Positions 19,181-64,000 of a DNA stretch of 64,000 nucleotides are shown piece after piece (the first letter of the stretch is position 1; every line of letters begins with the position of its first letter). Origin of the DNA: Tricholoma matsutake (Eukaryota; Basidiomycota; Agaricomycetes; Agaricales; Tricholomataceae). The translations under genes and the position numbers were made by a program. The DNA is taken from assembly GCA_026075535.2 (NCBI GenBank), contig AP026542.1, positions 6,758,001 through 6,822,000 on the forward strand, written 5' to 3'. Under the pieces are notes generated by a model that saw nothing but the letters and a program-made list of their open reading frames with translations, searched no databases and had not been told where the DNA came from.

Positions 19181-19213
19181 ACTGCATGAGCTTTTGATAC
19201 AAATGATTGCCAG
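19181..19213 (-). pseudogene. Helitron fragment at the rearrangement junction
   Basis: Minus-strand codons for YWQSFVSKAHA, continuing across the MITE into 18815. The first 8 bases on this strand (CTGGCAAT, plus-strand ATTGCCAG at 19206-19213) are the target site of the adjacent hAT-like element and recur, inverted, at 62074-62081 at the end of the other Helitron half. Confidence 0.8.
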
Positions 19214-20317
19214 TAGGGAATATCATGGGTACGGTAAAAACCACGGTGTTTGGGTCACGGGGACTGTGGGTATGGGTACGGTATTAGACATTGCTGACCT
19301 GCTTACTACTGTGACCCATTACCATGGTGTCACGGTGTTACACAGTATATTTGTTTATCTTTATCCCATGACACTCAATTGACCAAATGATGAACACGTT
19401 CCCCCCTCTACCTGTTCAAAACCCCCCTCCCTTCTCCCACCTCCATTAACGATGACTAGTGCTGCTCCAATGTCCTCCCGCCAAGACCAAATGGCAACAT
19501 GCATGGCTATAGGTACAACTCTGCATCGCCCATCATGAGTTTGACTATCCGTCACTCACTTTTCATAGGACCTCTCGAAAACATCTATATGTGAGGACTT
19601 AGGACCCCTTCAAAGCAAAAGGTAAGTTTTTCTATATTGTTCTTGTGCTTTTTAGTTTCTAACAAATTTTTTTGTCTATTTCTTAGGTTTCTGTTACTAT
19701 CTACAATGATGACATGCTGGACCTGCCAAACCCCTCCTCCCCATCCGAAATGGATATGAGGGGTTTGTTTGATGCTGGGAAGACCTCAGGGAGATGCACA
19801 AGGTAAGCATTCCCCTTCAGCCCATAAAACTGCCATGTCACTGCTTATCCCCTCCCACATGAGCCACCACTACAGGAACAAAACCCAGGCCAATGCCACC
19901 ACCACCTCTGCATCCTGCACCACCACCAATGAGGGATGACCATGCAAACAGGTGCAGAATGCCAGTGACAACAATGACAATGACAGCACCCACCCCCACC
20001 GCTGTGAGCAACTACTCGCAGGGTGGAAACGGGGAGCAATGACGACTAGCAAGCAACACAAACTGGCCACATTGTGCAGGAAATGGGCCCAAACAATGTC
20101 TATTATCGTTTGGGCCCTAGGTATTTTTTTAAATATCTTTTGTTCTGATTGTTTTGCAAGTAACTAACATTTTTATGTTTATTTTTAGGTTCTGATACTC
20201 TACAGTGACAAAAAGGACGGGCACCCCCAACCACCACCATGAGCAACCACTCATTGGGTGGAAATGGGGAACAATGGAGATGGTGAGAGGGCCAAGATAC
20301 CAGGACAACAATGATGG

Positions 20318-20341
20318 ACAACAACAACAACAACAACAATG
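20318..20341. repeat. ACA microsatellite inside hAT-like copy A
   Basis: A short run of ACA triplets. The inverted copy B has the corresponding TTG run at about 63104-63142, clearly longer. Confidence 0.7.
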
Positions 20342-20795
20342 ATGGCCACAACAATGATGCTGATGGGGACCCCCACGCCAACAACAGCACCCCCAACAGC
20401 TGCAAGCTACGCAAAACAGATGCATGGCACAGGAAACAGGCTCAAACAATGTTTATTGTCGTGTGGGCCCTAGAAATTTTATATATATCTTTTGTTCTTG
20501 CTTTTTTCTAACTACCTAATGTTTTTATTTGGTTTTTAGATTCTGATAGTGCACAACGACAACAACAGCGACAACAGGGAACAGGGAAGACAACGAGGGG
20601 GGCCACACAGCCACCACCCACCACCACAGCACCCCCAACCACCGCCGTGAGCAATTGCTTGCGGGGTGGAAACAGGGAGCAATGGAAGGGAGAGGGACAG
20701 CTACCGCGGCCTGCACCAGCACCACCGCTGCACCATGTACACTTACCCCCTCCTGCACGGGCCACCGCTACAGGAATGGAAACGAGGGGAATGAG

Positions 20796-20892
20796 ACAAA
20801 AGGGAAGGGAACAAGATGAAAGGGAAGGGAACAAGATGAAAGGGAAGGGAACAAGATGAAAGGGAAGGGAACAAGATGAAAGGGAAGGGAAT
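20796..20892. repeat. 20-bp tandem repeat (AAAGGGAAGGGAACAAGATG), about 4-5 units
   Basis: Four near-identical units followed by degenerate ones (GAATGAGACA variant). The matching place in inverted copy B (about 62620-62690) has fewer units, so the array has changed length since the copies separated. Open frames seen here on the minus strand are translations of the repeat. Confidence 0.85.
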
Positions 20893-21420
20893 GAGACAAA
20901 AGGGAGGGATGAGACGAGATGAGGGAACAATGAGGAGGAAAATGAGAATGGGGGGGATCAAGAGGGAGGAGACCGAGAAGGTGGAGAGGGTGCAAGGGGG
21001 GAAATGCGAGGGAGGGATGACAACACCTGCCCCTACCGCTGTGAGCCACTGCTCGCAGGGTGGATCTGTGGGTGCTAATGGATGAGGAAGAGGTGTTGTG
21101 GGGTTGGTGGCTAACTTCCATGAGCCCCTCTCACTCCCCACTTTATGCAGCCCCTGTGAGTCAGATGGTGAGTAATAAGTCATCACTGAAGCAGGGGTTT
21201 CTGATAGGTGATGGGGAGTTGAGCTGGTGCCAGTGGTAGTGGCATTCAACCTGTGAAACCACAGGTTTTCCCTGTGGTATTAGGCCACAGTGGAGTGGTG
21301 TTTTTCTAATTACCATGGTGAAAACATGCACCCATGGGTGTGGTGTCCTAATGGGGGTGTATGTGGGTATGGGTGCGGGTCAGTCTAATTTACCTGTGGT
21401 GTGACCCGTGTTACACCCTA

Positions 21421-23567
21421 TTGATCAGTATCCATCTAAAGCAATGCAGCTGCTTGATTTGCATCAAGATGAGTTGAGAGTGTTGGTGCCATCACTTTTA
21501 GGACTGCACAATCAATGTGTGACCATCAATGACTACAAAAGTGAAGGTGGATTGAAAAGATCAAATTCACCAAGGGGTAGTCGGGAAGAAGGCCAACACA
21601 GCTCAGAGACACTGGGACAAAAGTTGCTTTCTCCTCTGGGACCCATAGGCCCAGAGATTACTATTGAGAGACTGCTCCTGGGAATTCAGTCTGTTTGGGA
21701 GCTGATGATGCCATGAAATCTTTCTCTGAAATGGAATGAGTTGCCGTGCACATCAGCGCCAGCAACAACAATGTCAGAAGATGCACAGCAGATTAGGAGA
21801 GAAGAAAAGAAGACAGTTGAGGAAGAAAATCAACTGATTGGTGCCAAAGGGGAAGAAAACCCTTGGACACATTATACACAGATTGCCAATGAGAACTGTG
21901 CTCTACATTGCAAAGACATATTGAATTTTAATTTGTATGCCTTGCTGCAACAACTGAAAGAGTTGTTGGACAACTATTCATGCAGGCATCCTCAGATGCC
22001 TGTACAATATAGAGAATTCCCTGATGTGGGTTCAGAGGTACCCTCAAAGAAGAGGGTACATTATGATACTACAAACAGAATTGCACTGCAACAAGTGCGC
22101 AATGGCAATCTCTGAGATGGCCTGTCCACCAATATTCCTTATCAAGGGATCAGGTTTGGCAAGGATGGGAGCCCCTGGGAAAAGAAGGACCCCCAAACCT
22201 TCACAGAGTCATGCAGATTACAGGGATGCTCCAGGAGGTGATGACTCCAGAGATGACAGTAGCAGTGATGGTAATTCATCCTACAACCCATCCCATGGTA
22301 AGGGCGGATCTAAGTGTTCCTTGTCCACTGACAAGGTATCTGTAATTCCAACTTTGCCAGATGTCCAACAAAGAGTGGGAAGGCCACTTTCCCATTGAGA
22401 TAGGTTTGGAAGTGTGACTACCAAGTCATATAGAGAGACCATGCACAAGCAATCTCATACCAGAGGCGCTGACTAGTATAGAGAAAAGGGCCCTCACAGG
22501 TCTTCAAAATATTTGAGGGCCATGCATGCCAAATTTCACCAACAGATAGACAGCAAAGTCTCTGTTTTATGTGATACTCCTGCCATTGGAGGCAAGAATG
22601 GACCTTGGGTTCCAAACCTGCTGATGTACAGCAGGAACCAGGACACTGAGGTGTTCAAGCATTGGCTCAACAGTTTACTTTGATGGTTGAGGGTGAACAA
22701 GATCTGCAGACCAGAGAATGACTCTGATAGAATAGAATTCACTGCGATGTTCCTAGAGCACAATGCACTTTCCTGGTTTGAGGACAATGTCAACAGTGCC
22801 TACCATTGATGCATGCACTGGACTTTTAAAGATGTGATAACTGGTCTTTATGACCAGTTCGCCCATGATAATTTGATGCATGACACATCAGATAAATTCT
22901 GGAAAGTTGAGTATGATGCTGATGATGGCATCATGAGCTACTACTACAAGCTGGAGTGTTATGCTAACAGGATGATAGAAGCTCCAGATGCATTCACCTT
23001 CCAGTCACAACCGGTGACCAGATTACCAGTGAACATTATAACAATAAAGGCTGCACCATGGAGACTGCCTCCATGGAGGAAATATTGTTCTTTGCCCAAG
23101 AAGCAGAGGACATCAGAAGAATGACACTTGGGGACTCTGTACCAACCTTTGGGAACTGCAGTGACTGTCAGAGGTATGCTGGATTTGTATCAAGTGAACA
23201 TTATCTTGCTAGGATGATGACAAAAGGCATCAAACGTAGTGAGCCAGATGCAAATCAACATACTGCATGCCTTGCTCCTGATCAAATTGTTATTGATGAC
23301 TCCCACAAGGTTTTATCATTTTGGGTTCTTGAATATCTAGTTGCTGATATATTTATAGATCAATAAACACATTGCAAAAATTGACGGTGACCCAATCTTT
23401 GGTGCTTTGTGGACGTGCATGTCATCCCACTATATTCAGGGTCAAGCTTTGACCTTAACAAAAGCTCATGAAGAATGTATTGGGCCTCTCTCAGGTATTG
23501 CCAAGTCAGCAGAACATTGCCAAGTCAGCAGAACACTATGGCATGATAATCCTGTTGTAGCATTTTC
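21421..23567 (+). pseudogene. Degenerate gag-like host locus, 5' part, identity unresolved
   Basis: Plus-strand pieces with scattered stops. 22640-23000 resembles a retroelement gag capsid (FKHWLNSLL, FTAMFLEHNALSWFEDNVNS, KDVITGLYDQFAHDNL). 23260-23567 reads through a likely intron (GTTTTATC...TTTATAG, about 23310-23359) into KIDGDPIFGALWTCM and ends DNPVVAFS at the copia insertion. The frame continues after the copia element as DDPIK (35735-35750), and after the solo LTR beyond an intron as DKKLIYLAFPSLALN (36500 onward). A 20-bp direct duplication (ATTGCCAAGTCAGCAGAACA-like) lies at about 23500-23540. I do not recognise the family as a whole; it could be a captured or old gypsy gag gene. 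Confidence 0.45.
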
Positions 23568-27013: not shown

Positions 27014-27018
27014 CAAAA

Positions 27019-27673
27019 TGTTACAATTTTCCTTGTAACTCATGGAACCCGACACACCCGATGATCCCCTCCAGACAGGAGGCACCCCTTGATTCATGCC
27101 TAGGGCATGTCCTTGACATCAGACACACACATGATGCATGCCGACTGCATGCATTCGATCCCCTTCCCCCGAAGGCACCCTTGATGCATGGTGACTCCAT
27201 GCACCTGAACCCACTCCCACACATGCTGTGATATGACAGCCCCCTGACATGAGGTCCATGATGTCGGACTCTCACGATCGACATGCTGCACCACAGCATG
27301 TCCTTGACATTGGACGCCTCATGCTAGGCATGAGGCCTATTGTTTCTATTCTTACTTGATACGCATCTATCTTTCCGATTGGATGATAAGGACCTCCCTC
27401 GTCATATAAGTACTGCAACTCATAGTAGGGATGTCCTTAGTTTAGATCTAGGCAAATAACAGCCTTAACTTGAAACTCGCAAACTTACTCGAAACCACTA
27501 AGGAAGCCCCTTAGTGCGTGAACCTGAACGACTCTATGCAGAAGCCCTGCTAGAGTGCACTACCTATCTTACGTCGGATGCTCCAAGTAAGACTAGTGCT
27601 GAACGACTCATTGAGGAAGCACCTCATTGAATGACATCAACTAGATCAAGTGGTTGAGGCTTCGCCCTTAACA
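27019..27673 (+). repeat. 5' LTR of gypsy family 2, copy C
   Basis: 655 bp; lacks part of a CCTCATGC-rich internal repeat present in the 3' LTR, where a GCATGAGGC/GCCTCATGC hairpin-like unit is repeated. Confidence 0.9.
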
Positions 27674-27724
27674 TAAGATCTAAACTATCTGCTAGCCCAC
27701 CTACCTAGGTGTAGGCAATACATC

Positions 27725-28886
27725 TCGATACACACCACAGCGACCCGGGTCTAGACAAACCCCAGACCGACCACCAAGAGAAGCAGAACCACAGCCAGGT
27801 TCATCTTGGTACCAATACAATGGAAGACTAGTCCGTTACTCGACCCCAGCACAGTGTTGGTTCTACAGATCAACTGACAGACAATGAGGAGATTTCCTCA
27901 CCGACGAAGACTTTGAACAACTGCACACACCCCCACCCAAAACATCCACCCGCTTCTTAACAGACGAAACCGATGACCTCTATAACAAGATGTCCGAACC
28001 TGCAACTACACCAACGATGTCCATAAAGGACATTCAAATCCGATCACCCACAGACTTCTCAGGAGAGCAGACCAAGACTGCCAAGTTCCTGCAGGAGATA
28101 GACCTGTACTTGCGAATCAACGACCAGGTCTATGACACGAATGACAAGAAGATCATCTTCACGCTGTCCTTCATGAATGGAGGGACAGCAGCTGCCTGGG
28201 CACAGGCATTTGTCAACCAGCACCAATCCAAGGGACTAGGTGAATATGCAGGCTTCCGACAGAAGGTCCTAGAGGCCTTCTCACTGATCGACAATGCCAG
28301 AACGGCAAAGACAGAGATTAAGAATCTCAAACAAGGTTCAGGGAACCTCGAAGAATATGTGGCGAACTTCCGCATCCTGAAAGACAGGATGGGAATCACC
28401 AAAGATGCAGCCATGATTGAGTACTTCATGGATGGACTGCATCCCAAGTTACTGAAGAGGGTACACACAATGGAGACAGTGCCCAACACTCTCGAAGGCT
28501 GGATAAAGGCAGCTTCGAAATACGAAGGCCAATGGAAATGGGCCATGGCAATCCTGGGAAAGACCAGGCAGAACCAGAAGACAAACAAAACAACAAAGAA
28601 AGGACAGCCCTCTCTTGACATCAACCGACTGACGAACCAAGAATGCATGGAACACCTCTGGAAGGGATTGTGTTTCATCTGCCACCAACCAGGACACCGA
28701 TCGTCTGACCACAGGGATGGAAAGAACCCCACTCAGACGGGGTCAGTGCCCCCTCCCTACTGAAACCGCTTCACCCAGAAAAAGACTGGGGTGGACACCT
28801 ACCAGAAGATCCGCACAATGCTGGATGAACTAGACGAAGAAGAAAAGGAACGAGCCCTTAACCTCATGGAGGAATCAGGTTTTTAG
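27725..28886 (+). pseudogene. Gypsy family 2 gag (copy C)
   Basis: Capsid region includes FSGEQTKTAKFLQEIDLYL, KKIIFTLSFMNGGTAAAWAQ and EEYVANFRILKDRMGI. Then comes a zinc-knuckle-like CFICHQPGHRSSDH whose last ligand is His instead of Cys, and a C-terminal LDELDEEEKERALNLMEE. The ATG used in copy D (60776-60778) is ACA here. TGA codons at about 27885 and 28761 interrupt it. The uninterrupted 257-residue core is 27990-28763. Confidence 0.85.
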
Positions 28887-28951
28887 AACAGTGGCCTGAT
28901 ATGACGCCAGTCACCGCTGAAGTCTCCATAGGATCTGTACTCTTAGCTACC

Positions 28952-31900
28952 ATGAATAGACAATCTATGCGCCTGTCTATTCGGGTAGCTGAGTCAGACA
29001 ACAGGAAAGACGTTGCAACAAATGCACTCCTTGACTCTGGAGCAGGAGGAGTCTTTATCGACTCAAACTTTGTTGAATGAGAAGGGATCAGAACACACCC
29101 CTTAGGCCGCACCATCTGGGCCACGAACATAGACGGAACCCTGAACAAGCAGGGAACGATCACCAGATGCGTGAAAGGAGGACTCCACATCAACGGAAGG
29201 AGCTACCCAATAGAATACCTAGTCGCTGGACTAGGCAAAGAATCGGTAATCCTGGGCCTGCCATGGCTGTGGGAGATAAACCCGATCATTGACTGGAAGA
29301 AGGGAACCTTTGAGTTCCGAGATGAAGAATGATGGGCTCAAATCCAGTGGATCCTGGAGAAGACAAGAAGAGCCAAATGGGCCCTCCCAAATACCTTGAA
29401 CCTTCCGAAAATTAATGCTGGAAGGGAGGCGCCCGATGACAGGGTGGCACGAATTCGACACATCATAGCCAAGACAAGACAGAGGCTCTCCAAAGAGAAA
29501 GAGAAGAGCCTTACCTGAGCCAGATTGGCCATGGCAAAAACGAGAAAAAGACTCTCTGAGGAGAAGGAGAGAAACCTTGCCCAAGCACGACTGGCCATGG
29601 CAAAGACGAAGGAAAGGCTTTCTGAAAAGAAAGCCAAAGAACTAAATTCTGCCCAGATAGCTGTTGCAAAGACCAGGAGCAGCAACACCCCTAAACAAGC
29701 CAGAAGCCTTGAAGCGGCATGACATGCTGTCGCCAAGACCCAAGAAAACCAGAAGAAGAAACAACTGGAAAAGGGCAAAAACAAAGAATGCGACAGGGCA
29801 CAACAAATTGTGCAAAAGATGAAGGAATTGCTAACCTCCACAGGGGAGGGAAGCACCAGCAAAGGGAATGTAAAAATGACACTATGAAACAGGATAAACT
29901 ACCCTCGGCAACAGACTACCCCAACCCACAATGATAGGACTCCAGATCACAGTACCATCAATGCTAAAATACCTATGTGCAGGGAGACCCCCCCTCAGGT
30001 AAAGATCGAAGAGGTACCCGATGAAGAACTACTGGCAGACACCAGCATGGAAATATGAGCGATAGAACTGACCCCCGAACGAGATGTGATTGAGGACAAC
30101 TCAATACTGATTGCATACGTGCGAGGCGAACCAGTCATTGGCCTATTCAGACCAGCCATAGAACTGCCCCTGACAGAAGAACATCGAGAGCCGACACACA
30201 AATGCATCTGGAAGATGAACACCATCGGCAGACTCGTGAAAGGCAAGGGCTCCCCATGATACCTACTCAACTCTGACATATGGATCAGAGCAAAGACATC
30301 CATATCTCAATGACTGGCACATGAGCAAGAGGAGGGAAAGGAGACTAGCCAACAGACCCTGGATGACTTGCTGCCACCAGAATACCAGAAATACAGACAG
30401 GTATTTGAAAAGGCCACATCTGAACGATTCCCAGAATCAAGACCGTGGGATCATGCAATTGACTTGAAGGAAGGCTTTGTACCAAAAGATTGCAAAGTCT
30501 ACCCATTGACACCGAAAGAACAAGAGAAACTCAATGAGTTTCTCAATGAAAACCTGGAGAAAGGATACATCCGACCATCGAAATCACCCATGGCATCCCC
30601 GTTCTTCTTTGTGTTGAAGAAGGACTCTGACACTCTATGACCTTACCAAGACTATCGCTATCTGAACAAAGGAACGATCCGGAACAACTACCCCCTGCCA
30701 CTGATCAGAGACCTCTTGGACAAGCTGAAGGGAGTGAGATTTTTCACGAAACTTGATATTCGATGGGGATATCATAATGTACGGATAAAGAAAGGAGACG
30801 AGTGGAAGGCAGCATTCAAGACTAACCAAGGGCTATTTGAGCCAATGGTGATGTTCTTTGGGCTGTGCAACTCACTGGCAACATTCCAGGCGATGATGAA
30901 CGATCTCTTCCGAGATATGCTAGATGAAGGATGGCTCGTCATCTATATGGACGACATCCTGATCTTCTCAAAGATGGAAGAAGAACACCGGATAAGGACC
31001 GAAAGGGTCCTCGAATGACTACGACAATGCGATCTCTACCTGAAAATAGAGAAGTGCAGATTCAGTGTACAGGAAGTCAAGTTCTTGGGCATGATTGTCA
31101 GACCCAATGAACTTGCAATGGACAACACAAAACTGGCTGGGATCAAAGACTGGCCCACGCCAAGGACAGTGAAGGATGTAAGATCCTTCCTAGGATTCGG
31201 AAACTTCTATCAATGATTCATTGGACACTTCGCGGATCTGGCCAGACCGCTAAATGATTTGACGAAGAAGAACCAGAAATTTGAATGGACAAACGACTGC
31301 CAGCAGTCGTTCGATGTGCTAAAAAGGAAGTTCAACAAAACCCCAGTACTGCTGATGCCAGATGCAACGAAACCATTTGTGGTGGAATTTGATGCCTCGA
31401 AATTTGCAACAGGTGCAGTACTCAGACAACAGGATGCCAACGGAGACTGGCACCCATGCAGATACATCTTGCATTCTTTCAATGAAGCAGAAAGAAATTA
31501 CGAGATATATGACTGGGAACTATTGGGAGTAATCCAAGCACTGGAAACATGGAGACACTACCTACAGGGGACACCATTCCCTGTGACGGTACTGTCCGAT
31601 CACAAGAACCTGATGTACTTCCATCAGCCACAGAAACTGAACCAACGACAGGCTAGATGGGCTATTTACCTGTCACAATTCGACCTGAAGCTACAACACA
31701 TACCAGGATCACAGATGGTACAATCTGATGCCCTATTGAGGAGAGCAGATCACATAGCCGAAGAAGACACCGATAACGAGGACAAGACCATCCTCGCTGA
31801 TGAACTGTTTGTCAAAACGATCAACACTGAGCTCCAGGGAGCCCTGGTCTCAGCAATAATGAAGGACAACCTCGTAAATGACGCTTTATGAGCCCTGAAG

Positions 31901-32758
31901 AACAATGGAACCCCCCCAATCAAGTCTGCATTGGAGGACTGGAAATTCAAAGATGGCCTGCTCTTTCTCAAAGACAGATGCTACGTGCCACAGGACGAGA
32001 CCCTCCGCTGAGCGATCATACAGAAATGTCATGATAGCATCATGACAGGGCACCCTGGACAATGGCAGACAATCGAACTGATCCGATGAGACTACTGGTG
32101 GCCAGGAATGGCCAACTTCATCAAGAAGTACGTCGAAGGCTGTGCAAAGTGCCAGCAAATGAAAGTGAATACACACCCGACAACCCCACTGCTGACACCG
32201 ATATCATCCGACGCCAGCAGACCATTCGAGCTGGTAACAACAGATTTTATCATGGACTTGCCCATGATAAACAGATTTGACTCAATCATGGTCATGGTAG
32301 ACCATGGTCTTACGAAGGGGGTAATTTTTATCCCTTGCGCGAAGACGATTGATGCACTTGGCGCCGCAGACCTTTACCTGCGCCATGTGTACACCAGATT
32401 TGGACTCCCCGGAAGAATCATCTCAGACAGAGACCCTCGATTCGCATCCAAACTCTTCCAAGAACTCGGACGACTGCTCAGAATCAAGCTATCCATGAGC
32501 ACCGCCTATCACCCCCAGACCGATGGAGAAATGGAGCGAGTAAACCAAGAGCTAGAGGTTTACCTCTGCATGTTCTGTTTGAACAAAGACATTAAACTAC
32601 CAATCGTCTGCAAAGACATTAAACTACCGATGGTCTGCAAAGACATTAAACTACTGATCATCCGCAAAGACATTAAACTAGCGATTATCTGCAAAGATGT
32701 TAAACTAGCGATTGTCCGCAAAGATGTTAAACTAGTGATCATCCGCAAAAGACGTTAA
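28952..32758 (+). pseudogene. Gypsy family 2 protease-RT-RNase H-integrase (copy C), integrase tail lost
   Basis: Protease ALLDSGAGGVFID at about 29030. A linker made of repeats such as RLAMAKTKERLSEKKAKEL follows (29460-29720), then RT with [31 protein letters not shown] and [10 protein letters not shown], RNase H ([18 protein letters not shown]), an integrase zinc finger (HPGQWQTIELI...CAKCQQ) and the integrase core ([36 protein letters not shown]). At MFCLNK (about 32585) it runs into a 27-bp tandem array and the rest of integrase and the chromodomain are gone. In-frame TGAs near 30638, 31016, 31213, 31889, 32009 and 32088 mostly sit where copy D or the family has Arg. Confidence 0.88.
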
Positions 32759-35338: not shown

Positions 35339-35375
35339 TACAATTCCATGCAAGGAGTACCACAGTGAGGAGGAG

Positions 35376-47046: not shown

Positions 47047-47306
47047 TGTTAAGGGCGAAGCCTCAACCACTCGATCTAGTCAATGTCGTTTGATGAGGTG
47101 CTTCCTCGACGAGTTGTTCAGCACTAGTCTTACTCGGAGCATCCAACGTAAGATGGGTAGTGCACTCTAGCAGGCCTTCTGCATAGAGTTGTTCAGGTTC
47201 ACGCACTAAGGGGCTTCCTTAGTGGTTTTGAGTAAGTTTACGAGTTTGCAAGTTAAGGCTGTAGATTGCCTAGATCTAAACTAAGGACATCCCTACTACA
47301 AGTTGC
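47047..47306 (-). repeat. 3' LTR of gypsy family 2 copy D, outer fragment
   Basis: 260 bp matching 60825-61084; continues at 53352-53807 beyond the nested element. Confidence 0.9.
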
Positions 47307-47731
47307 TGTAAGGGGACTAGGGGGGTGCCCTGTGTGTTTTTCCTATTTTTTATGTTCGTCCCATATTTTTCCCCACCTCATTTCCTTCTATTCTTCATTT
47401 TCTATGATTTTTCCAGATTTTATTACTAATTTTCCCTTGCTATCATGTTTGTATATGTTGACACTTTTATATTTAGAGGCGGAGTACCCCTTCCGACACA
47501 TACCCCTTGGTATGATGTCATTCGGCGGCCTTGATCCGCCTATCTCCGCCTTTTTCTATTTTTAGGTTATATTTGATTTTGTCGTCTTCACATATACTGG
47601 GCATCAGCAAGGGGATCCTTAGAGTTTTCTCTTCGGATTTCCCTTTGCTAGGTGCGCCCCCAATCCCTGTATTATGTAGCATAATTTTAACTTCGGATTT
47701 CCCTTTGCTAGAGGCTTAGGTTGCCCTTATA
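47307..47731 (+). repeat. 5' LTR of gypsy family 3
   Basis: 425 bp; contains a direct repeat TTCGGATTTCCCTTTGCTAG near its end. Confidence 0.95.
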
Positions 47732-47897
47732 GTAGAAAACTCTCCCCTAAGGCCCGAAAATCGCGAACGCGCTGCCCAAAATAGGCAGGTACAGACTGGA
47801 CGATGCTTCCCAAAGCTTCGCAGAGTCCCTACACACCGTTCCAGATACTCTCGCCTTTATTGCACCGCCATTTTCGCCAAATGCGCTCCCTAGCAAC

Positions 47898-48896: not shown

Positions 48897-49012
48897 GATG
48901 AACTCCTGCAAGATTTGTTGGCACTTGTAGATGTTGAGGAAGCGAAGGATCAAGTTGCAGAGGAGGTTAAGCTGGAAGTTGTAGAGGAGCAGGATTTTCC
49001 TATTCGCAGTGA

Positions 49013-52000: not shown

Positions 52001-52915
52001 TTCATGGCAGAGTTCACTCGTGAGCTGTACCGACTCCTGGGGATCAAACTCCTCGCTTCAACTGCTTATCACCCACAAACTGATGGCCAGACGGAGCGAG
52101 TCAACCAGGAACTGGAGCAGTACATCCGCCTCTTTGTCAATGAACGCCAGGACGATTGGGATGATCTCCTTCCTTTGGCCGAGTTTGGGTACAACAACCA
52201 TGTCCATGCTTCCACTCAACAGACCCCTTTCCTCTTAGACACTGGACGACATCCACGCATGGGATTTGAGCCTCGCCAAACTCCCTCACACATCGAGACA
52301 GTGAATGAGTTCACAGAACGCATGAGGGATAGCTTGGAGGAGGCAAGGGCAGCCTTAGCAAAGGCGAAGGACGACATGGCACGATTTTACAACCAGCGCC
52401 ACTCCCCAACCCCTCAGTACAAGGTTGGTGATCGAGTTTATCTTGACTCCAGTGACATCTCCACTACACGTCCATCCAAGAAACTCGCTCATCGCTTCTT
52501 GGGACCTTTCCCCATTGTCAAGTGCGTTGGAACACATGCCTATCGTCTACACCTCCCAGCCTCCATGTCCAGACTCCATCCCGTCTTCCATGTTGTCAAA
52601 TTGCTTCCAGCTCCCCCAGATCCGTTCCCGGGACGCCATTCACACCCACCACCACCACCTACAGTGATCGAGGGAGAACCCCAATATGAAGTCGAGTCAA
52701 TCTTGGACAGCCGTTTGTGTCGAGGAAAACTCCAGTATTTGGTACATTGGAAGGGTTATGGGTATGAGGAGAACTCATGGGTCGAAGAGTCTGATGTAAA
52801 TGCCCCTCGGTTAATCAAGGAATTCCACCGACGGCACACTGCTGCACCGCGTCGCATTCAAGTCACGGACTTTGGTTGTATACAATTTCGAATGCATCGG
52901 GGTGATGCATCTTAG
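49013..52915 (+). CDS. Gypsy family 3 pol: protease, RT, RNase H, integrase, chromodomain
   Basis: One frame with a single TGA (49547-49549, GYPWL-stop-DHNPEVDW, expected CGA), after which 1,107 codons are open. Protease ALLDSGATGLFIDS; an acidic linker (PDSDDDDEDPEEVEEGD); RT with [32 protein letters not shown] and IYLDDILIF; RNase H (VEADSSDFAMGAVLSQQ); integrase finger (HDSQIAGHPGRWKTLE...CRTCDLC) and core ([34 protein letters not shown]); chromodomain (QYLVHWKGYGYEENSW). Chromodomains steer such integrases to heterochromatin, which fits nesting inside another element's LTR. Pol follows gag in another frame, so it needs frameshift or reinitiation. Confidence 0.93.
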
Positions 52916-52926
52916 AGAGGGGGTGA

Positions 52927-53351
52927 TGTAAGGGGACTAGGGGGGTGCCCTGTGTGTTTTTCCTATTTTTTATGTTCGTCCCATATTTTTCCCCACCTCA
53001 TTTCCTTCTATTCTTCATTTTCTATGATTTTTCCAGATTTTATTACTAATTTTCCCTTGCTATCATGTTTGTATATGTTGACACTTTTATATTTAGAGGC
53101 GGAGTACCCCTTCCGACACATACCCCTTGGTATGATGTCATTCGGCGGCCTTGATCCGCCTATCTCCGCCTTTTTCTATTTTTAGGTTATATTTGATTTT
53201 GTTGTCTTCACATATACTGGGCATCAGCAAGGGGATCCTTAGAGTTTTCTCTTCGGATTTCCCTTTGCTAGGTGCGCCCCCAATCCCTGTATTATGTAGC
53301 ATAATTTTAACTTTGGATTTCCCTTTGCTAGAGGCTTAGGTTGCCCTTATA
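52927..53351 (+). repeat. 3' LTR of gypsy family 3
   Basis: 425 bp; carries both C-to-T differences from the left LTR. Confidence 0.95.
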
Positions 53352-53807
53352 GTTGCAGTACTTATACTAGAAGGGAGGTCCCTATTGTCCAATCGGAAAG
53401 GTAGATGCATATCAAGTAACAATAGAAACAATAGGCCTCATGCCTTGCATGAGGCATCTGATGTCATGGAGTGCTGCAGCACAGCATGTCAGGGAACAAT
53501 AAGAGGCATCCAATGTCGCGGATCCAATGTCAAGGATCCAATGTCAATCATGAGAGTCCAACATCACGGACCTCATGTCAAAGTGCTGTTGCATCACAGC
53601 ATGTATGGGTGTGGGTTTGTGTGCATGGAGTCACCATGCGTCAAGGGTGACTTCTGTGGGAAGGGGATCGAATGCATGCCATTGGCATGCATTGTAGGTT
53701 CGTCTGGTGTCAAGAGCATGCCACAGGCATGAGTCGAGGGGTGCCTCCTGTCTGGAGGGGATCATCAGGTGCGTCGGGTTCCATGAGTTACAAGGAAAAT
53801 TGTAACA
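53352..53807 (-). repeat. 3' LTR of gypsy family 2 copy D, inner fragment
   Basis: Matches the remainder of 60825-61510, ending TTGTAACA. Contains CCTCATGCCTTGCATGAGGC-type palindromes characteristic of this LTR family. Confidence 0.9.
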
Positions 53808-53909
53808 TTACCCCTTCGCTATGGTCAAAAGTTCCACACTTTGACCTAAATCTTTGTCTCTCCTTCGTGGTCTGATCGGGCGTGGTCTGGTTATGTGGGT
53901 AGGTCGGGG

Positions 53910-54176
53910 TCAAGGGGTACGATGGAGGAATAGTTCATGTCCAAATTCGGACCATGATTGGGTTCTTCTGGTTCGCGCTGCCCTAGGTAGCGGTGTCAAG
54001 GAGTCGGTGGTATCATTGAAAGGGGGGTGTTGCAGGATGGCAAATTCAATGTCTGTAATCGGGGGTTTGGGACTTGGTTGGAAGATGGCATAGAGGCAAA
54101 ATGCGAATGTCAGGGCTGCCGCTGCAGCCAGGGTCATGCCAACGATGATGGCGAGGATCGTAATTCCTGCGAGCAT
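53910..54176 (-). CDS. Gypsy family 2 ORF4: small single-pass membrane protein, unknown role
   Basis: 88 residues. The N-terminus is a strongly hydrophobic segment (ITILAIIVGMTLAAAAALTF, continuing AFCLYAIF), a signal anchor by appearance, followed by a polar tail (PPFNDTTDSLTPLPRAARTR). It lies between the pol end and the 3' LTR, the place of env in enveloped LTR retroelements. The C-terminal part is preserved in copy C (32821-32993), so the ORF belongs to the family and is not chance. There is no sequence sign of a fusion protein. Confidence 0.5.
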   Translation of the reverse strand: MLAGITILAIIVGMTLAAAAALTFAFCLYAIFQPSPKPPITDIEFAILQHPPFNDTTDSLTPLPRAARTRRTQSWSEFGHELFLHRTP

Positions 54177-54215
54177 GGGTCTGTCTTGTCATGCCATCAT
54201 CTTGAGCTCTGTCTC

Positions 54216-54940
54216 TTAAATCCTTTCATATGGTTCTCCCATCATGTTTCCCATTGCATCATCATCAAAATCATCGTATCCAGAGTTAAAGAAGAGCCAC
54301 TGTCTGTGCTCAGCTTCTCTTTGATCGGTTTCTCAATCTTTCTGAGGTTTCTCCAGGCAATTCATCCTGTAGTGTCTGGGGCCTTGCTGTTTGCAATACC
54401 TGCAAACATATCGTTGGCAAATCAGGTTAAAGTGGCCTATCTGTTGGCAGATGAAACATCTGGCATGTCTCATGTGTGGGGGAGACCAAGGCAGTTGGGT
54501 GGTCTTTGGTTCGGGTTCAGGAGTGGTCAGATCAATTATTTTGGGTGCCCTAGGCACGATCTTTGGGTTCTTCATAGAATGGGAGGAGCCTCCAGAGGGA
54601 GCTTGTTGTTCATCTCTGTTGCTCTGCTTGCTGAATGGCGAGAGCGAGGTCGGTGGTCATCTGTGTCAATCTAGGGGGGTGTGAGGTCTCTCCTCAGCTA
54701 TTCTCGGTCTGTCTGACCGCGGTGCAATCATCTCCTGGATCGTCTGTTCAATCCCCAGGGTGTCTGCATTGTTTATTGCTTCTTCTAGATTTCACTCCAT
54801 TTGTTTGATTGTGCTCACATAGTAGAAGCACATCCTGGCAAGATGGTATTTTGGTGGGTCGTGGGCGAGGTGAATGTGAAGGGCATCAGCATTCGATCGG
54901 TTTCGAGGTATTCTCAGGTGAATTGTTGTTCGGCAGGCAT
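54216..54940 (-). pseudogene. Gypsy family 2 ORF3: double zinc-knuckle protein with acidic tail
   Basis: Read from MPAEQQF (54940), through a TGA and a probable frame change, to LARMCFYYVSTIKQME, NLEEAINNADTLGIEQTIQE, a Pro/Ser region, then RHARCFICQQIGHFNLICQR and YVCRYCKQQGPRHYRMNC (two Cys/His knuckles), and an acidic end (GYDDFDDDAMGN) at 54216. TGA codons at about 54795, 54675 and 54334 fall at CGA-like positions. The 80-residue knuckle part (54333-54575) is open. A nucleic-acid-binding role is inferred from the knuckles. Copy C lost this region. Confidence 0.5.
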
Positions 54941-54989
54941 TTTTGGGGAGTGTCGTAGTGGGAAGAAGGGGGGTTCTGGGTTTTGTCAG

Positions 54990-57900
54990 AGGTGGTACCT
55001 CTTCTTATATTCTGTCAGGATCTCGGGGGCATTCTTCAGGTTCGATTCGGGTTCCATGTGTTTTCGGATGTCGGGTAGTCAACCCATTTCACGAGGTAAC
55101 GGCGTGTCTTGCTGTGCTTCTTGTGTGCGATGATCGCTTCCACCTCGTATTCATTTTCTCCTTCCATGAGGTCTGGTGGTGGAGTCAGGAAGTTTCGCCC
55201 ATGAGTGTCATTCTCATGGTATCGTGTGAGTAAAGCCACATGGAATACCGGGTGGATCTTCCATCTTGGCAGCAGTTTCAATCGGTATGTCGTTCTTGAC
55301 AAGGCATCTTCAATCATGAAGGGCCCTTCTCGTTTTGGTGCCAATTTTCTCGTTGGGTAGCCAATCTTCAGGTTCTTGGAGTCAAGCCATACTTGTTCTC
55401 CAACCTTGAATGGTTTGTATCACCCTTTCATTCAGGTGGCCATAGCCTGTCTGGCTAGTTTGTGTGCAGCAAGAGCTTCCCTTCTCGCAGAGAGAAGTTC
55501 TTGGATCCTCTGTTTGGTGGCCAGCACATTCGTCTTTTTGTAAGGGGTGGGGATAGCGCGTGGTTGATATCCCATCATCAAGTAAAACGGCGAATGTTTT
55601 ACTGTGGAGTGCATCTTCTGATTATGCGCAAATTCTGCTGTTGGGAGATAACACTCCCAATCTTCAGGTTTGTTCAAACAGAACATGTGGAGGTAAACTT
55701 CTAGCTCTTGGTTTACTCACTCCATTTCTCTGTCAGTCTGGGGGTGATAGGCGGTGCTCATGGATAACTTGATCCCGAGCAATCGTCCGAGTTCTCAGAA
55801 GAGTTTGGATGCGAATTGAGGGTCTCTGTCTGAGATGATTCTTCCCAGGAGTCCAAATCTTGTGTATCCATGGCACAGGTAAAGGTCTGCGGTGCCAAGT
55901 GCATCGATCATCTTCGCGCAAGGGATAAAAATTACCCCCTTCATAAGACCATGGTCTACCACGACCATGATTGAGTCAAATCCATTTATTATGGGCAAGT
56001 CCATAATAAAATCTGTCGTTACCAGCTCAAATGGTCTGCTGGCATCAGATGATATTGGTGTCGGTGGTGGGGTCATCGGGTGTGTGTTGATCTTCATTTG
56101 CTGGCATTTCACGCAGCCTTCGACATACTTCTTTATGAAGTTGGCCATTCCTGGCCACCAGTAGTCTCGTTGGATCAGTTTGATCATCTGCCATTGTCCA
56201 GGGTGCCCTGTCGTGATGCTATCATGGTATCTCCATATGATTGCTTGGCGGAGGGTTTTGTCCTGTGGCACATAGCATCTGTCTTTGAAAAAGAGCAGGC
56301 CGTCTTCGAATTTCCAGTCCTCCAATGCAGACTTGATTGGGGGAGTTCCATTGTTCTTCAGGGCTCGTAAAGCATCATTTACGAGGTCGTCCTTCATTAT
56401 TGCTGAGACCAGGGCTCCCTGGAGTTCAGCGTCGATCATTTTCACGAATAGTTCATCAGTGAGGATGGTCTTGTCCTCGTTATCAGTGTCTTCTTTGGCT
56501 ATATGATCTGCTCTCCTCGATAGGGCATCAGATTGTACCATCTGTGATCCTGGTACATGTTGTAGCTTCAGGTTGAATTGTGATGGGTAGATGCTCCATC
56601 TAGCCTGTCATCGGTTCAGTTTCTGTGCCTGACGGAAGTATGTCAGGTTCTTGTGATCAGATAGTACCATCACAGGGAATGGCATCCCCTGTAGGTAGTG
56701 TCTCCATGTTTCCAGTGCTTGGATTACTCCCAGTAGTTCCCTGTCGTATATCTTGTAATTTCTTTCTGCTTCATTGAAAGAGTGAGAGATATATCCACAT
56801 GGGTGCCAGTCTCCATTGGCATCCTGTTGTCTGAGTACTGCACCTGTCGCAAATTTCGAGGCATCAGATTCCACCACAAATGGTTTTGTTGCGTCTGGCA
56901 TCAGCAGTACTGGGGCTTTGTTGAACTTCCTTTTTAGTGCATCGAATGACTGTTGGCAGTCGTTTGTCCATTTGAATTTCTGGTTCTTCTTTGTCAAATT
57001 GTTCAGCAGTATCCTTCACTGTCTTTGGCATGGGCCAGTCCTTGATCCCAGCCAGTTTCGTGTTGTCCATCGCGAGTTCATTGGGCCTGATGATCATGCC
57101 CAAGAAGTCAACTTCTTGCATGTTGAACTTGCACTTCTCTATCCTCAGGTAGAGATCACATTGTCGTAGTCATTCGAGGACCCTTTCAGTCCTTATCCGG
57201 TGTTCTTCTTCTGTCTTCAAGAAGATCAGGATGTCATCCATATAGATGATGAGCCATCCTTCATCTAGCATGTCTCGGAAGAGATCATTCATCATGGCCT
57301 GGAATGTTGCTGGTGAGTTGCACAGCCCAAAGAACATCACCATTGGCTCAAATAGCCCTCGGTTAGTCTTGAATGCTGCCTTCCACTCATCTCCTTTCTT
57401 TATCCATACATTATGATATCCCCATCAAATATCAAGTTTTGTGAAAAATCTTGCTCCTTTCAGCTTGTCCAAGAGGTCTCCGATCAGTGGCAGGGGGTAG
57501 TTGTTTCAGATCGTTCCTTCGTTCAGATAGCAATAGTCTTGGCAAGGTCGCAGAGCATCAGAGTCCTTCTTTGACACGAAGAAGAACGGGGATGCCATGG
57601 GTGATTTCGACAGTCGGATGTATCCTTTCTCCAGGTTTTCATCTAGAAACTCATTGAGTTTCTCTTGTTCCTTTGGTGTCAGTGGGTAGACTTTGCAATC
57701 CTTCAGTACAAAGCCTTCCTTCAAGTTGATCGCATGATCCCATGGTCTTGATTCCGGGAATTGTTCAGATGCAGCTTTTTCGAATACCTGTCTGTATTTC
57801 TGGTATTCTGGTGGCAGTAGGTCATCCAGGGTCTGTTTGCTGGCCTCCCTCCCCTCATCTTGTACATGTGCAAGTCACTGGGAAATGGATGTCTTTGCTC

Positions 57901-59227
57901 TGATCCATGCGCTCTTCGAGAATACATATCATGGGGAGTCCTTGGCTTTTGTGATCCTGGAGATCGTGTTTGTTTTCTGTATGTATGTATGGGTCAGTCC
58001 TCAGTGTTCCTTGGTGAGGGATGGTTCTTCTGGTGGTTCAAATATGCCAATGACCGGTTCTCCTCGTACATATGCGATCAAGAGGTCTGTCACATCTTGT
58101 TTGTGGGTTTCTCCCATTGCTCGTATTTCCATGCCGGTGTCTGCCAGTAGTTCTTCATCGGGTACCACTTCGATCTTTACTCGAGGGGGGGTCTCCCTGG
58201 GTATCGGTACTCTGGTGTCAGTAGTACCATAATCTGGGGTTCTGTAATCGTGTATTGGGGTAGCCTCCTGACAAGGGTCTTTTGTCTTGTTTTGTAGTGC
58301 CATTTTCGAGTTTCATTTGCCGGTGCTTTCCTCCCCTGTGGAGGTCAGTGAGTCTTTTTTCTTCCGCAAGATCCATCGTGTCTTGTTGCATTTGTTGTGT
58401 TTGCCCTTTTCCAGTTGCTTCTTCTTCTGGTTTTCTCGGGTCTTGGCAACAGCACATTGTGCTGCTTCGAGGTTTCTGGTTTCTCTAGGAGTGCTGCTGC
58501 TCCTGGTCATTGTGATGGCTTTCTGGACCGAATTCAGCTCCTTTGCTTTCTTCTCGGAAAGCCTTTCCTTTGTTCTTGCCATGGCCAGTTGGGCTTGGGC
58601 GAGGTTCCCTTCTTTCTCTTTGGAGAGCCTCTTTCTTGTTTTTGCCACAGCCAATCTGGCTCAGGCAAGGCTTCTCTCTTTATCTTCAGAGAGCCTCTGT
58701 CTTGTTTTGGCCATGATGCGTCAGATTCATGCCATTCTGTCATTCGGTGCCTCCCTTTCAGCGTCAACCCTGGGGAGTTTTAGGGTGTTTGGGAGGGCCT
58801 GTTCAGCTCTTCTCGTCTTCTCCAAGATTTGTTGGATTTGAGCCTGTCATCCTTTGTCTCGGAACTCAAGAGTTCCTTTCTTCCAATCAATGATCGGGTT
58901 TACCTCCCACAGCCATGACAGACCTAGGATTACCAATTCTTTGCCTAGTCCAGCAACTAGGTATTCCATTGGGTAGCTCCGTCCATTGATGTGGAGCCTC
59001 CCTTTCACGTATCTTGTGATCGTTCCCTGCCTATTCAGGGTTCCATCTACATTTGTGGCCTGGATGGTGTGGCCTAAGGGATATGTCCTGATCCCTTCTT
59101 GTTCGACAAATTTCAAGTCAATAAAGACTCCTCCTGCTCCAGAGTCGAGGAGCGTGTTTGTTGCAATGTCTTTCCCATTGTCTGACTCAGCTACCCAAAT
59201 AGACAGGCGCATAGATTGTCTATTCAT
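54990..59227 (-). pseudogene. Gypsy family 2 protease-RT-RNase H-integrase-chromodomain (copy D)
   Basis: Protease 59227-58847 (TLLDSGAGGVFIDLKFVEQE). A linker with long KRLSKEKEGNLAQAQLAMAR-type repeats runs 58840-58300. Further pieces: [20 protein letters not shown] in [20 protein letters not shown] in RNase H, HPGQWQMIKLIQRDYWW and the integrase core ([20 protein letters not shown]). The C-terminal integrase (55686-55432) and GPFMIEDALSRTTYRLKLL lead to a chromodomain (RYLVKWVDYPTSENTW) near 55060. Stops and frame changes occur about every few hundred bases, many TGA at CGA sites. It preserves what copy C lost after MFCLNK. Confidence 0.85.
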
Positions 59228-59294
59228 GGTAGCTAAGAGTACACAGATCCTAGGGAGACTACAGCGGTGACTGGCATCGTATCAGGCTGCTGTT

Positions 59295-60778
59295 CTAAAA
59301 ACCCGATTCCTCCATGAGGTTGAGGGCTCATTCCTTTTCTTCTTTGTCCAGTTTGTCCAGCATCATGCAGATCTTCTGGTAGGTGTCCACCCCAGTCTTT
59401 TTCTGGGTGAAGCGGTTTCGGTAGGGAGGGAGCGCTGACCCCATCTGAGTGGGGCTCTTTCCATCCCTGTGGTCAGACGATCAGTGTCCCAGTTGGTGGC
59501 AGATGAAACACAATCCCTTTCGGAGGTGTTCCACGTGTTCTTGGTTCGTCAGTCAGTTGATGTCAAGAGAGGGCTGTCCTTTCTTTGTTGTTTTGTTTGT
59601 CTTCTGGTTCTGCCTGGTCTTTCCCAGGATTGCCATGGCCCGTTTCCATTGGCCTTCATATTTCAAAGCTGCCTTTATCCAGCCTTCGAGAGTATTGGGT
59701 ACTGTCTCCATTGTGTGTACCCTCTTCAGTAATTCGGGGTGCAGTCCATCCATGAAGTACTCAATCATGGCTGCATCTTCTGTGATTTCCGTCCTGTCTT
59801 TCAGGATGTGGAAGTTTGCCACATATTCTTCAAGGTTCCCTGAACCTTGTTTGAGATTCTTGATCTCAGTCTTTGCCGTTCCAGCATCATCAATCGGTGA
59901 GAAGGCTTCTAGGACCTTCTGTCTGAAGTCTGCATATTCCCCGAGTCCCTCGGATTGGTGTTGGTTGACAAATGCCTGCACCCAGGCAGCTGCTGTCCCT
60001 CCATTCATGAAGGACAGTGTGAAGATGATCTTCTTGTCATTCGTGTCGTAGACCTGGTCATTGATTCACAGGTACAGGTCTATCTCCTGCAGGAACTTGG
60101 TGGTCTTGGTCTGCTCTCCTGAGAAGTCTGTGGGTGATCGAATTCGAATGTCCTTTACGGATGTCATGGGTGTGGACCTTAGTGTTTCAAGGTCCAGTTG
60201 GGTTGCAGTCTTTTGCAGTCTTTTTAAAATTTAAACTGCCTCCTACTAACTCAAACAATAAGATAAAATCATGAAAATATTTGAGCAGATAGATCTGGCC
60301 AAAGACCGGGGGGTCATCTCTGGAATATAAGGATTCTGGTCAGTGATTGTCAATATAATCACAAAATTTAATCATGGATAGAGAAGTAAAAATAATGGGG
60401 GGTCCTCTCTGTGACAAAATGATTTCATCCAGTCATTGCTGAGATACAGCAAAACAGCAAAAGACCAGACCTTGAAACACTAGGTGTGGTTGCAGTGGGT
60501 TTGGACATCTCGTTATAGAGGTCATCAGTTTCGTCTGTTAAGAAGCGGGTGGATGTTTTGGGTGGGGGTGTGTGTGGTTGTTCAAAGTCTTTGTCAGTGA
60601 GGAAATCTCCTCTTTGTCTGTCAGTTGATCCATAGAACCAACGCTGTGCTGGGGTCGAGTAATGGACTAGTCTTCCATTGTATTGGTACCAAGATGAACC
60701 TGGCTGTGGTTCTGCTTCTCTTGGTGGTCGGTCTGGGGTTTGTCTAGACCCTGGTTGTTGTGGTGTGTGTCGAGACAT
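59295..60778 (-). pseudogene. Gypsy family 2 gag (copy D), interrupted by a MITE
   Basis: Starts MSRHTPQQPGSRQTP (60778) with PGSSWYQYNGRLVHYSTPAQ, runs to MSKPTATTP at the MITE, and resumes MTSVKDIRIRSPTDFSGEQT. The capsid (FMNGGTAAAWVQAFVNQHQS) and the CFICHQLGH-type knuckle follow, the latter with a TGA for Arg and again His as last ligand. Ends EESGF at 59295. Confidence 0.85.
60180..60482. mobile_element. 303-bp hAT-like MITE in gag of gypsy copy D
   Basis: Ends TAGTGTTTCAAGG and CCTTGAAACACTA, nearly the same as the ends of the 39600-40909 element. GGTGTGG flanks both sides (60169-60175 and 60483-60489), with four extra bases on the left, so the duplication is imperfect. AT-rich inside, no coding capacity. 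Confidence 0.75.
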
Positions 60779-60824
60779 ATTGCCTACACCTAGGTAGGTG
60801 GGCTAGCAGATAGTTTAGATCTTA

Positions 60825-61510
60825 TGTTAAGGGCAAAGCCTCAACCACTCGATCTAGTCAATGTCGTTCGATGAGGTGCTTCCTCGATGAGTTGTTCAAC
60901 ACTAGTCTTACTTGGAGCATCCAACATAAGATGGGTAGTGCACTCTAGCAGGCCTTCTGCATAGAGTCATTCAGGTTCACACACTCAGGGGCTTCCTTAG
61001 TGGTTTTGAGTAAGTTTACAAGTTTGCAAGTTAAGGCTGTAGATTGGCTAGATCTAAACTAAGGACATCCCTACTACAAGTTGCAGTACTTATACTAGAA
61101 GGGAGGTCCCTATCGTCCAATCAGAAAGGTAGATGTGTATTAAGTAACAATAGAAACAATAGGCCTCATGCCTTGCATGAGGCATCTGATGTCACGGAGT
61201 GCTGCGGTGCAGCATGTCAGGGAACAATAAGAGGCAAGCCTCATGCCTAGCATGAGGCATCCGGTGTCACGGACCTCATGTCAAAGTGCTGTTGCATCAC
61301 AGCATGTATGGGTGTGGGTTTGGGTGCATGGAGTCACCATGCATCAAGGGTGCCTTCTGTGGGAAGGGGATCGAATGCATGCCATCAGCATGCATTGTAG
61401 GTTCATCTGGTGTCAAGGGCATGCCACAGGCATGAGTCGAGGGGTGACTCCTGTCTGGAGGGGATCATCGGGTGCATCGGGTTCCATGAGTTACAAGGAA
61501 AATTGTAACA
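60825..61510 (-). repeat. 5' LTR of gypsy family 2 copy D (coding sense)
   Basis: 686 bp, TGTTAAGGGC...TTGTAACA, followed by the GAAAC target copy. Confidence 0.93.
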
Positions 61511-62081
61511 GAAACAGTAGAAAAAAAAGTAGAATTAGAAATGGCTTCAGAAAACTATAAGGATCCTACTGAAACATTACCTGTTGCACCACTGCCTGTA
61601 TGCACTGTAACCAATTGTCAAAATTGTGACAAATGCACTGCAATGACTTTATGGACCAAAAAATATTATGAGACAGTTGATGATTTATTGCTAAAATCAA
61701 ATGTTCATATTTGCACAACTAACAGAAGTAAAAATGGTTCACAACACAAACTGTGTTCATTTACAGGCTGTTTAGATAATATTTGGAACAAATGTAAAGC
61801 ACGGTTTCCAAGGCTGCTATTTGAATATACAACAGTTGATAAAGAAACTGGCAGTCTGAACTGCAAAAAAAGAGAGTCAATGCTGAACACATTTACATAT
61901 CCTATTACATATCTCTTCAGATGCAATACTGATGTCACTAGTTTGTGGTCTGGAACTGCTATCAAGGCTGTGTTGTTGTACATCTCCAACTACATCACAA
62001 AGCCAACCTTAAAGACTCATATAATATTTGATACAGTTAGAGCCATATTTCAGAAGAATGCCAAATCTTTTTACTGGCAAT
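61511..62081 (+). pseudogene. Helitron Rep region, continuation with catalytic tyrosines
   Basis: Continues the frame of 45235-47046 after gypsy copy D: EKKVELEMASENYKDP, a Cys-rich block (CTVTNCQNCDKC), then KAVLLYISNYITKPTLK, whose YxxxY arrangement (Y in YISNY) gives the Rep nucleophile tyrosines, and finally AIFQKNAKSFYWQ at the hAT-like element. This segment has no internal stop. The reading frame continues on the other strand at 19213 (SFVSKAHAVMSHAAW). Confidence 0.9.
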
Positions 62082-64000
62082 TAGGGTGTAACATGGGTCA
62101 CACCACGGGTAATTTAGACCGACCCACACCTGTACCTGCATACACTGCACCTGTTAGGACACCGCACCCATGGGTGCATGTTTTCACCATGGTAATTAGA
62201 AAAACACCACGGTGTATGAACACCATGGTACACCACTCCACCATGACCTAATACCACAGGGAAAACCTGCGGTTTCGCAGGTTGAATGCCACTACCACTG
62301 GCATTAGCTCAACTCCCCATCACCTATTAGAAGCCCCTGCTGCAGTGATGAGCTATTGCTCACCATCTGACTCACAGGGGCTGCATAAAGTGGAGAGTGA
62401 GAGGGGCTTATGGAAGTTAGCTGCCAACCCCACAACACCTCTTCCTCATCCATTAGCACCCGCAGATCTGCCCTGCAAGCAGTGGCTCACAGCGGTAGGG
62501 GCGGGTGTTGTCATCCCTCCCTCGCATTTCCCCCCTCGCACCCTCTCCACCTTCTCGGTCTCCTCCCTCTCAATCCCCCCCATTCTCATTTTCCTCCTCA
62601 TCATTCCCTCATCTCATCTCATCCCTCCCTTTCATCTCATTCCCTTCTCTTTCATCTTGTTCCCTTCCATTTTGTCTCATTCCCCTCATTTCTGTTCTTG
62701 TAGTGGTGGCCCATGCAGGAGGGTGTAAGTGTATGTGGTGCAGCGGTGGTGCTGGTGTGGGTCGCAGTAGCTGTCCCTCTCCCTTCCATTGCTCCCCATT
62801 TCCACCCTGCGAGCAGTTGCTCGCGGTGGTGGGTGGTGGCCATGTGGCCCCCCTCGTTGTCTTGCCTGTTCCCCGTTGTCACTGTTGTCATCGTTGTGCA
62901 CTATCAGAATCTAAAAACCAAATAAAAACATTAGTTAGTTAGAAAAAAGCAAGAACAAAAGATATATAAAAAATTCCTAGGGCCCACATGACAATAAACA
63001 TCGTTTGAGCCCGTTTCCTGTGCCATGCATCCGTTTTGCATAGCTTGCAGCCATTGGGGTGCTGTTGTTGGCGTGGGGGTCCCCATTGGCATCATTGTTG
63101 TGGCCATTGTTGTTGTTATTGTTGTTGTTGTTGTTGTTGTTGTCTGTCATCGTTGTCCTGGTATCTCAGCCCTCTTGCCATCTCCGTTGTTCCCTGTTTC
63201 CACCCCACAAGCAGTTGCTCATGGCGGTGGTTGGGGGTGCCCATCCTTTTCATCACTGTAGAGTATCAGAACCTAAAAATAAACATAAAAATGTTAGTTA
63301 CTTATGAAAAAATAAGAATGAAAGATATTTAAAAAAATACCTAGGGCCCAAACAACAATAGACATTGTTTGGGCCCATTTCCTGCATGATATGGCCAGTT
63401 TGTGTTGCTTGCTAGTCGTCATTGCTCCCCGTTTCCACCCTGCAAGTAGTTGCTCACAGCGGTGGGGGCAGGTGCTGTCATTGTCATTGTCATCACTGGC
63501 ATTCTGCACCCGTTTGCATGGTCATCCCTCATTGGTGGTGGTGCAGGATGCAGAGGTGGCAGTGGCATTGGCCTGGGTTTTGTTCCTGTAGTGGTGGCTC
63601 GTGCAGGAGGGGATAAGTGGTGATGTGGCAGTTTTATGGGCTGAAGGGGAATGCTTACCTTGAGCATCTCCCTGAGGTCTTCCCAGCACCAAACAAACCC
63701 CTCACATCCATTTTGGATGGGGAGGAGGGGTTTGGTGGGTCCGATGTGTCATCATTGTAGATAGGAACAGAAACCTAAGAAATAGACAAGAAAGTTTGTT
63801 AGAAACTAAAAAGCACAAGAACAATATAGAAAAACTTACCTTTTGTTTTGAAGGGGTCCTAAGTCCTCACATACAGATGTTTTTGAGAGGTCCTATGAAA
63901 AGTGAGTGACAGATAGTCAAACTCACAATGGGCAATGCAGAGTTGTACCCATAGCCATGCATGTTGCCATTTGGTCTTGGTGGGAGGACATTGGAGTGGC
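62082..64000. mobile_element. hAT-like non-autonomous element, inverted copy B, runs past window end
   Basis: Begins TAGGGTGTAACATGGG, the reverse complement of the right end of copy A, and follows copy A in reverse up to the base pairs equivalent to about 19475. It includes four palindromes (near 62475, 62810, 63208, 63440) and the TTG run. Left flank CTGGCAAT (62074-62081). Scattered substitutions and different repeat lengths relative to copy A show the copies are diverged. If its length equals copy A's it should end near 64290. Confidence 0.85.

Follow-up and report, generated by a model that had tools for sequence, protein, structure and literature searches.

Background

Ectopic recombination between copies of the transposon Galileo was inferred as the origin of inversion 2z3 of Drosophila buzzatii from exchanged target-site duplications together with chimeric copies, and two further Galileo inversions, 2j and 2q7, arose 'seemingly' by recombination as well (PMC2775673). 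According to the same source, insertion of a hybrid element gives an outcome close to that of recombination, except that the copies are identical instead of chimeric. In maize, Ac/fAc elements of the hAT superfamily generate inversions by reversed-ends transposition, which makes one new matched pair of duplications (PMC8225341). That paper also cites impala, an element of the Tc1-mariner superfamily whose aberrant transposition in Fusarium oxysporum provides a case of transposon-made rearrangement in a fungus. Here, we describe a 41-kb segment of chromosome 5 of the mushroom Tricholoma matsutake, which in this assembly is almost certainly inverted between two opposed copies, A and B, of a hAT-like element, with one half of a Helitron left at each breakpoint. 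The window, that is the whole stretch of DNA analysed, comprises 64,000 bp (positions 6,758,001-6,822,000 of the 12,860,286-bp chromosome) in a genome assembly of 161,040,721 bp and 13 contigs, named Tma1.0 in PMC10211490 and, with an equal total, TMA_r1.0 in PMC10627285.

The matsutake locus resembles the Galileo inversions in carrying inverted copies of a cut-and-paste element at both breakpoints and in the exchange of target-site duplications. It differs from them in element and host, as Galileo belongs to the P superfamily, makes 7-bp duplications and lives in an insect (PMC2775673). The maize inversions are closer in element type, since they too involve a hAT element that duplicates 8 bp and sits at both breakpoints, and are of similar size (about 81 kb in maize), but they show one new matched pair in place of the two exchanged pairs found here (PMC8225341). 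Transposon-made inversions with exchanged duplications are already known, and this locus adds one in a fungus, with a hAT-like element. For its kind, this example is unusually well marked.

Exchanged duplications at the two breakpoints

The original prediction, made from the letters of the window alone, had placed two inverted hAT-like copies, two Helitron halves and three 8-mers at positions where all of them are indeed present (Table 1). Copies A and B lie in inverted orientation and differ by 182 substitutions in 2116 aligned columns (8.6%) and by 132 gap bases; transitions make up 169 of the substitutions, and 142 of these fall at CpG-type sites. Copy B was expected to continue past the window and does so. 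The adjoining sequence (fetched as locus L009, whose position 4738 is window position 64238) places its terminus, GATATTCCCTA, about 50 bp short of the forecast position near 64290. The terminus is followed by exactly the 8-mer that had been predicted, CTGATCAA, and not by a direct duplicate of CTGGCAAT or an unrelated 8-mer.

The flanks accordingly read ATTGCCAG-A-TTGATCAG on one side and CTGGCAAT-B-CTGATCAA on the other, the last 8-mer lying outside the window. ATTGCCAG is CTGGCAAT on the other strand and is present as a single copy in unbroken Helitron paralogs, while TTGATCAG is a single copy in the paralogs of a decayed repeat, hereafter locus 2. The four flanks are two 8-bp target-site duplications with exchanged partners. 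Within the window, ATTGCCAG occurs three times, CTGGCAAT four times, TTGATCAG once and CTGATCAA twice, and with 8-mers this rare, chance would hardly give a pair of reciprocal matches at set positions. The inversion with its endpoints, the earlier insertion into the Helitron and the exchange of 8-bp flanks are supported by the prediction borne out beyond the window and by unbroken paralogs at both sites.

Table 1. Positions of the breakpoint features and of the elements around them, in window coordinates
Feature	Position	Strand	Remarks
Helitron C half (helicase part)	16401-19213	-	PF05970 PIF1 at 17414-17917
ATTGCCAG	19206-19213		left flank of copy A; one of the 8-bp duplicates of the Helitron site
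hAT-like copy A	19214-21420	+	2207 bp, TAGGG...CCCTA
TTGATCAG	21421-21428		right flank of copy A; one of the 8-bp duplicates of the locus 2 site
Locus 2 inner flank, part of a decayed repeat	21421-22100	+	5 other genome matches, in which it continues into L009:4747 onward
Inverted segment	21421-62081		40,661 bp today; exchanged duplications at both ends and empty-site paralogs
Helitron N part, first piece	45669-47046	+	PF14214 Helitron_like_N; ends at the long terminal repeat (LTR) element insertion
Outer LTR element in Helitron N part	47047-61510		5-bp duplication GAAAC at 47042-47046 and 61511-61515
Helitron N part, second piece	61511-62081	+	ends at copy B; without 153 bp found in paralogs
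CTGGCAAT	62074-62081		partner of the duplication at 19206-19213, left of copy B
hAT-like copy B	62082-64238 (in-window part 62082-64000)	-	2157 bp; end outside window at L009:4738

Unbroken paralogs of both insertion sites

Helitrons have a 5' TC terminus and end in a 3' hairpin and CTRR. Both Helitron domains are recognised by Pfam in the present copy, PF14214 over 45669-47170 and the PIF1-type helicase PF05970 in the C half, which probably runs on to about 15354. Genome searches with the N piece and the C half gave 42 and 41 matching places, respectively, and the best other matches of both queries are the same two loci, C1 and C12, where the two parts lie in order at 96-97% identity (the stretch of the C half compared with paralogs being 16401-18815). 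Among 14 distinct fetched Helitron copies, the window's own left out, ten read unbroken through TTTTTACTGGCAATCA. In one other, on chromosome 2 at 827 kb, the bare 8-mer occurs only in another context, and three had no match. The view of one Helitron split into opposite-strand N and C halves stands in this respect, but the element is in three main pieces today, with the N part itself interrupted by the outer LTR element. The N half does end in the letters AKSFYWQ as described, but that reading frame runs over a 153-bp deletion (62060-62067) about 15 bp from copy B; the deleted sequence is kept in all three paralogs measured (L002, L003 and L004). At the opposite breakpoint, the C half contains a palindromic insert (18815-19180) whose two arms are 77% alike and which is absent from the six paralogs aligned there; read by eye, TCATGC may be its target duplication.

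The flanks of locus 2 are about 43 kb apart today. Searched alone, the right flank (L009:4747-4866) and the left flank (21429-21600) match the same five loci, L042 to L046, side by side; these are all the other matches given by the genome search with 21421-22100, and the pre-insertion site is unbroken in all five. In L042, the two flanks are separated by just 8 bp, a single copy of the duplication. TTGATCAG is exact in L042 and L043, one base off in L044, two off in L046 and diverged in L045. The window copy of locus 2 is without some 15 bp adjoining the site that are present in several relatives. As a control, comparison of the right flank with the other fetched loci gave one match of 19 bp.

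Nature of the inserted element

Terminal inverted repeats of hAT elements are short and start with YARNG, a consensus that the TAGGG...CCCTA ends of A and B fit. The 8-bp length of the target-site duplication, seen in two pairs at this locus, is likewise a hAT trait. No Pfam match to a hAT transposase was obtained for the longest frame of A (178 aa, stop-to-stop) or a 158-aa frame of B, the two frames scanned with introns ignored. The genome has at least 151 matches to the hAT transposase domain PF05699, none of which was tied to the A/B family. On these sequence features, A and B would at most represent a non-autonomous, hAT-like element.

Among the matches listed by genome searches with the entire element and with either of its ends, there is no further full-length copy; as these searches scored the best 40 of 1632, 86 and 267 candidates, one may have been missed. 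Relatives share about 130 bp at one end and shorter internal blocks. Of four such relatives, three retrieved with the left end and the fourth with the right, L077 (1929 bp) and L078 (1049 bp) have perfect matched 8-bp duplications; in the other two, no partner end with one mismatch or fewer lies within the 2.4 kb fetched. Since matched duplications are found in two of the four, swapped flanks are not usual for this element.

Relative age of the copies

Raw divergence was rejected as a clock. Set against 94 of 2882 positions (3.3%) between the window Helitron and C1, the divergence of A and B seemed to make the copies older than the insertion into the Helitron, but this clock fails because of the predominance of transitions at CpG-type sites described above. 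Outside such sites, A and B differ at 40 of 1899 positions and the Helitron and C1 at 45 of 2804 (p 0.22). The LTR pair of the element inside the Helitron, which is necessarily younger than the Helitron copy, differs at 20 of 639 (p 0.17 versus A-B), and this excess over the Helitron-C1 value (p 0.015) means that rates are not uniform. The LTR pair was also rejected as a dating anchor, and neither of two further clocks was used, as they disagree. Transversions (13/2116 for A-B versus 9/695 for the LTR pair, p 0.085) place the A-B split after the LTR insertion. CpG decay places it before, with A and B retaining about 24% of sites and the LTR pieces 33-75% (33 sites, about 10 bp shared by these pieces being counted twice). 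The number of former CpG sites is estimated at 154; 25% of them survive in A and 23% in B, with 12 common to both where 8.9 would be expected if losses were independent. The safe order is only that of the Helitron, then the hAT-like insertion into it, then the inversion.

The observed/expected CpG ratio is 0.47 for the window, 0.06 and 0.13 for the Helitron pieces and 0.29-0.30 for A and B. Depletion of this strength suggests methylation-linked decay of repeats, which distorts dating.

Routes to the inversion

The assembly shows the two insertion sites and their duplications, the exchange of these and the orientation of the parts. For the route, we lean towards recombination between two inverted copies as the more probable one. 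A hAT-like element without a recognised transposase would first have inserted in the chromosome 5 Helitron, duplicating CTGGCAAT, and a second copy in opposite orientation would have come to sit in locus 2, between duplicates of CTGATCAA. The two would then have undergone non-allelic homologous recombination, flipping the segment between them (now 21421-62081), putting the Helitron halves on opposite strands and leaving each element with one flank from each site. As long inverted repeats, A and B are a substrate for such recombination. A pair of copies predating the flip, and host recombination rather than transposase as its cause, are inferred. We lean this way because Galileo 2z3, with its exchanged duplications and chimeric copies, was assigned to recombination (PMC2775673) and because near-identical inverted repeats would have many generations in which to recombine.

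Several observations weigh against this route. The Galileo 2z3 copies are chimeric (PMC2775673), but no third full-length copy for such a comparison with A and B is among the matches listed, and no signal of chimerism was detected. If the copies had decayed unequally before a crossover, the side keeping more CpG should switch along the element. A scan of CpG decay in A versus B (27 versus 23 sites kept on one side only) did not reveal a switch point (permutation p 0.33); at best, the sites divide 11:3 versus 16:20 (Fisher p 0.056 before correction for choosing the split). The conflict of clocks over whether A and B separated before or after the LTR insertion in the Helitron is a further difficulty. 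Finally, A and B are the sole full-length copies among the matches listed, which a one-copy mechanism explains more simply.

Such a mechanism, which we put forward tentatively as a possible but less probable origin, is hybrid-element insertion, in which the only element was the one in the Helitron and its ends on two sister chromatids inserted at a new site. In this way, one non-autonomous hAT-like element would have caused a natural inversion in a single step, and the only two full-length copies in the genome would lie one at either breakpoint. The same four flanks are expected as from recombination, as we derived for this locus, and the two outcomes are called strikingly similar in PMC2775673. 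That no other full-length copies are among the matches listed favours this route with one copy, or else a local jump with recombination after it, which fits the same data. The similar CpG loss of A and B, its near independence and their non-CpG divergence, not distinguishable from that of the Helitron from C1 so that the split need not predate the insertion, are also in keeping with it. Against it stand the need for active transposase and a rarer reaction, the CpG decay, by which A and B seem to have parted before the LTR insertion, and the fact that no demonstration for fungal hAT elements was found in the literature examined. Copies made in this way should have been identical at the time of inversion, and the substitutions present today, mostly transitions, no longer allow former identity to be judged.

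An assembly error, with the segment between the repeats turned round by the assembler and unflipped in reality, would produce these flanks too, and the HiFi N50 of only 10-11 kb and the 1.05% heterozygosity of the sample (PMC10211490) leave some room for it. We consider it very improbable, as the repeats, at 2.2 kb, do not reach the length of such reads, and substitutions (8.6%) as well as indels tell them apart. That two samples, A10 and B4, were assembled separately, with corresponding contigs in Table 1 of PMC10211490, may also speak against it. Reversed-ends transposition with two elements is known from inversions made by maize Ac (PMC8225341), but it yields one new matched pair of flanks, and at this locus each of the two pairs matches and neither empty site shows anything out of the ordinary. 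The second pair in large part contradicts this route, which was rejected as very improbable. That the Helitron halves are unrelated and were cut at one site by independent insertions, without any inversion, is imaginable in a genome rich in Helitron relatives, but each half complements the other, both end at the same 8 bp and they share their nearest paralogs, and the second reciprocal flank pair, also joined in paralogs, contradicts this barely credible reading.

Other features of the locus

Nested in the outer LTR element of the Helitron is a younger one (about 47307-53351) with the duplication GTTGC and LTRs that are 99.3% alike. Because LTR elements lie inside it, the inverted segment may have been shorter at the time of the flip. 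Long LTR-type repeats at 27019-32587 and 55669-61510, in opposite orientation and 86-90% alike, also lie within the segment and are another possible flip substrate. Outside the window, copy B is neighboured by a repeat of about 186 bp (L009:4941-5126) with 39 other matches of 94-98% among the best 40 of 503 candidates, and by a hairpin element (L009:5127-5453, window 64627-64953) whose ends are TAGGG...CCCTA and whose 8-bp duplication, CTGATATT, is perfect.

Significance

Literature searches on matsutake transposons and inversions and on fungal inversions gave no report of this inversion, as judged by title or start of the abstract. Multiple inversions have been described between T. bakamatsutake and T. 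matsutake, with no mechanism named in the passages of PMC10627285 drawn on here. The present locus offers one route for such inversions, as well as a template, elements with swapped 8-bp flanks, for finding more. As an inversion made by transposons in a basidiomycete, it can be read clearly from a single assembly, since the two sites as they were before insertion are still present in paralogs. Whether fungal hAT elements flip segments by means of transposase or serve only as homology also becomes testable through it.

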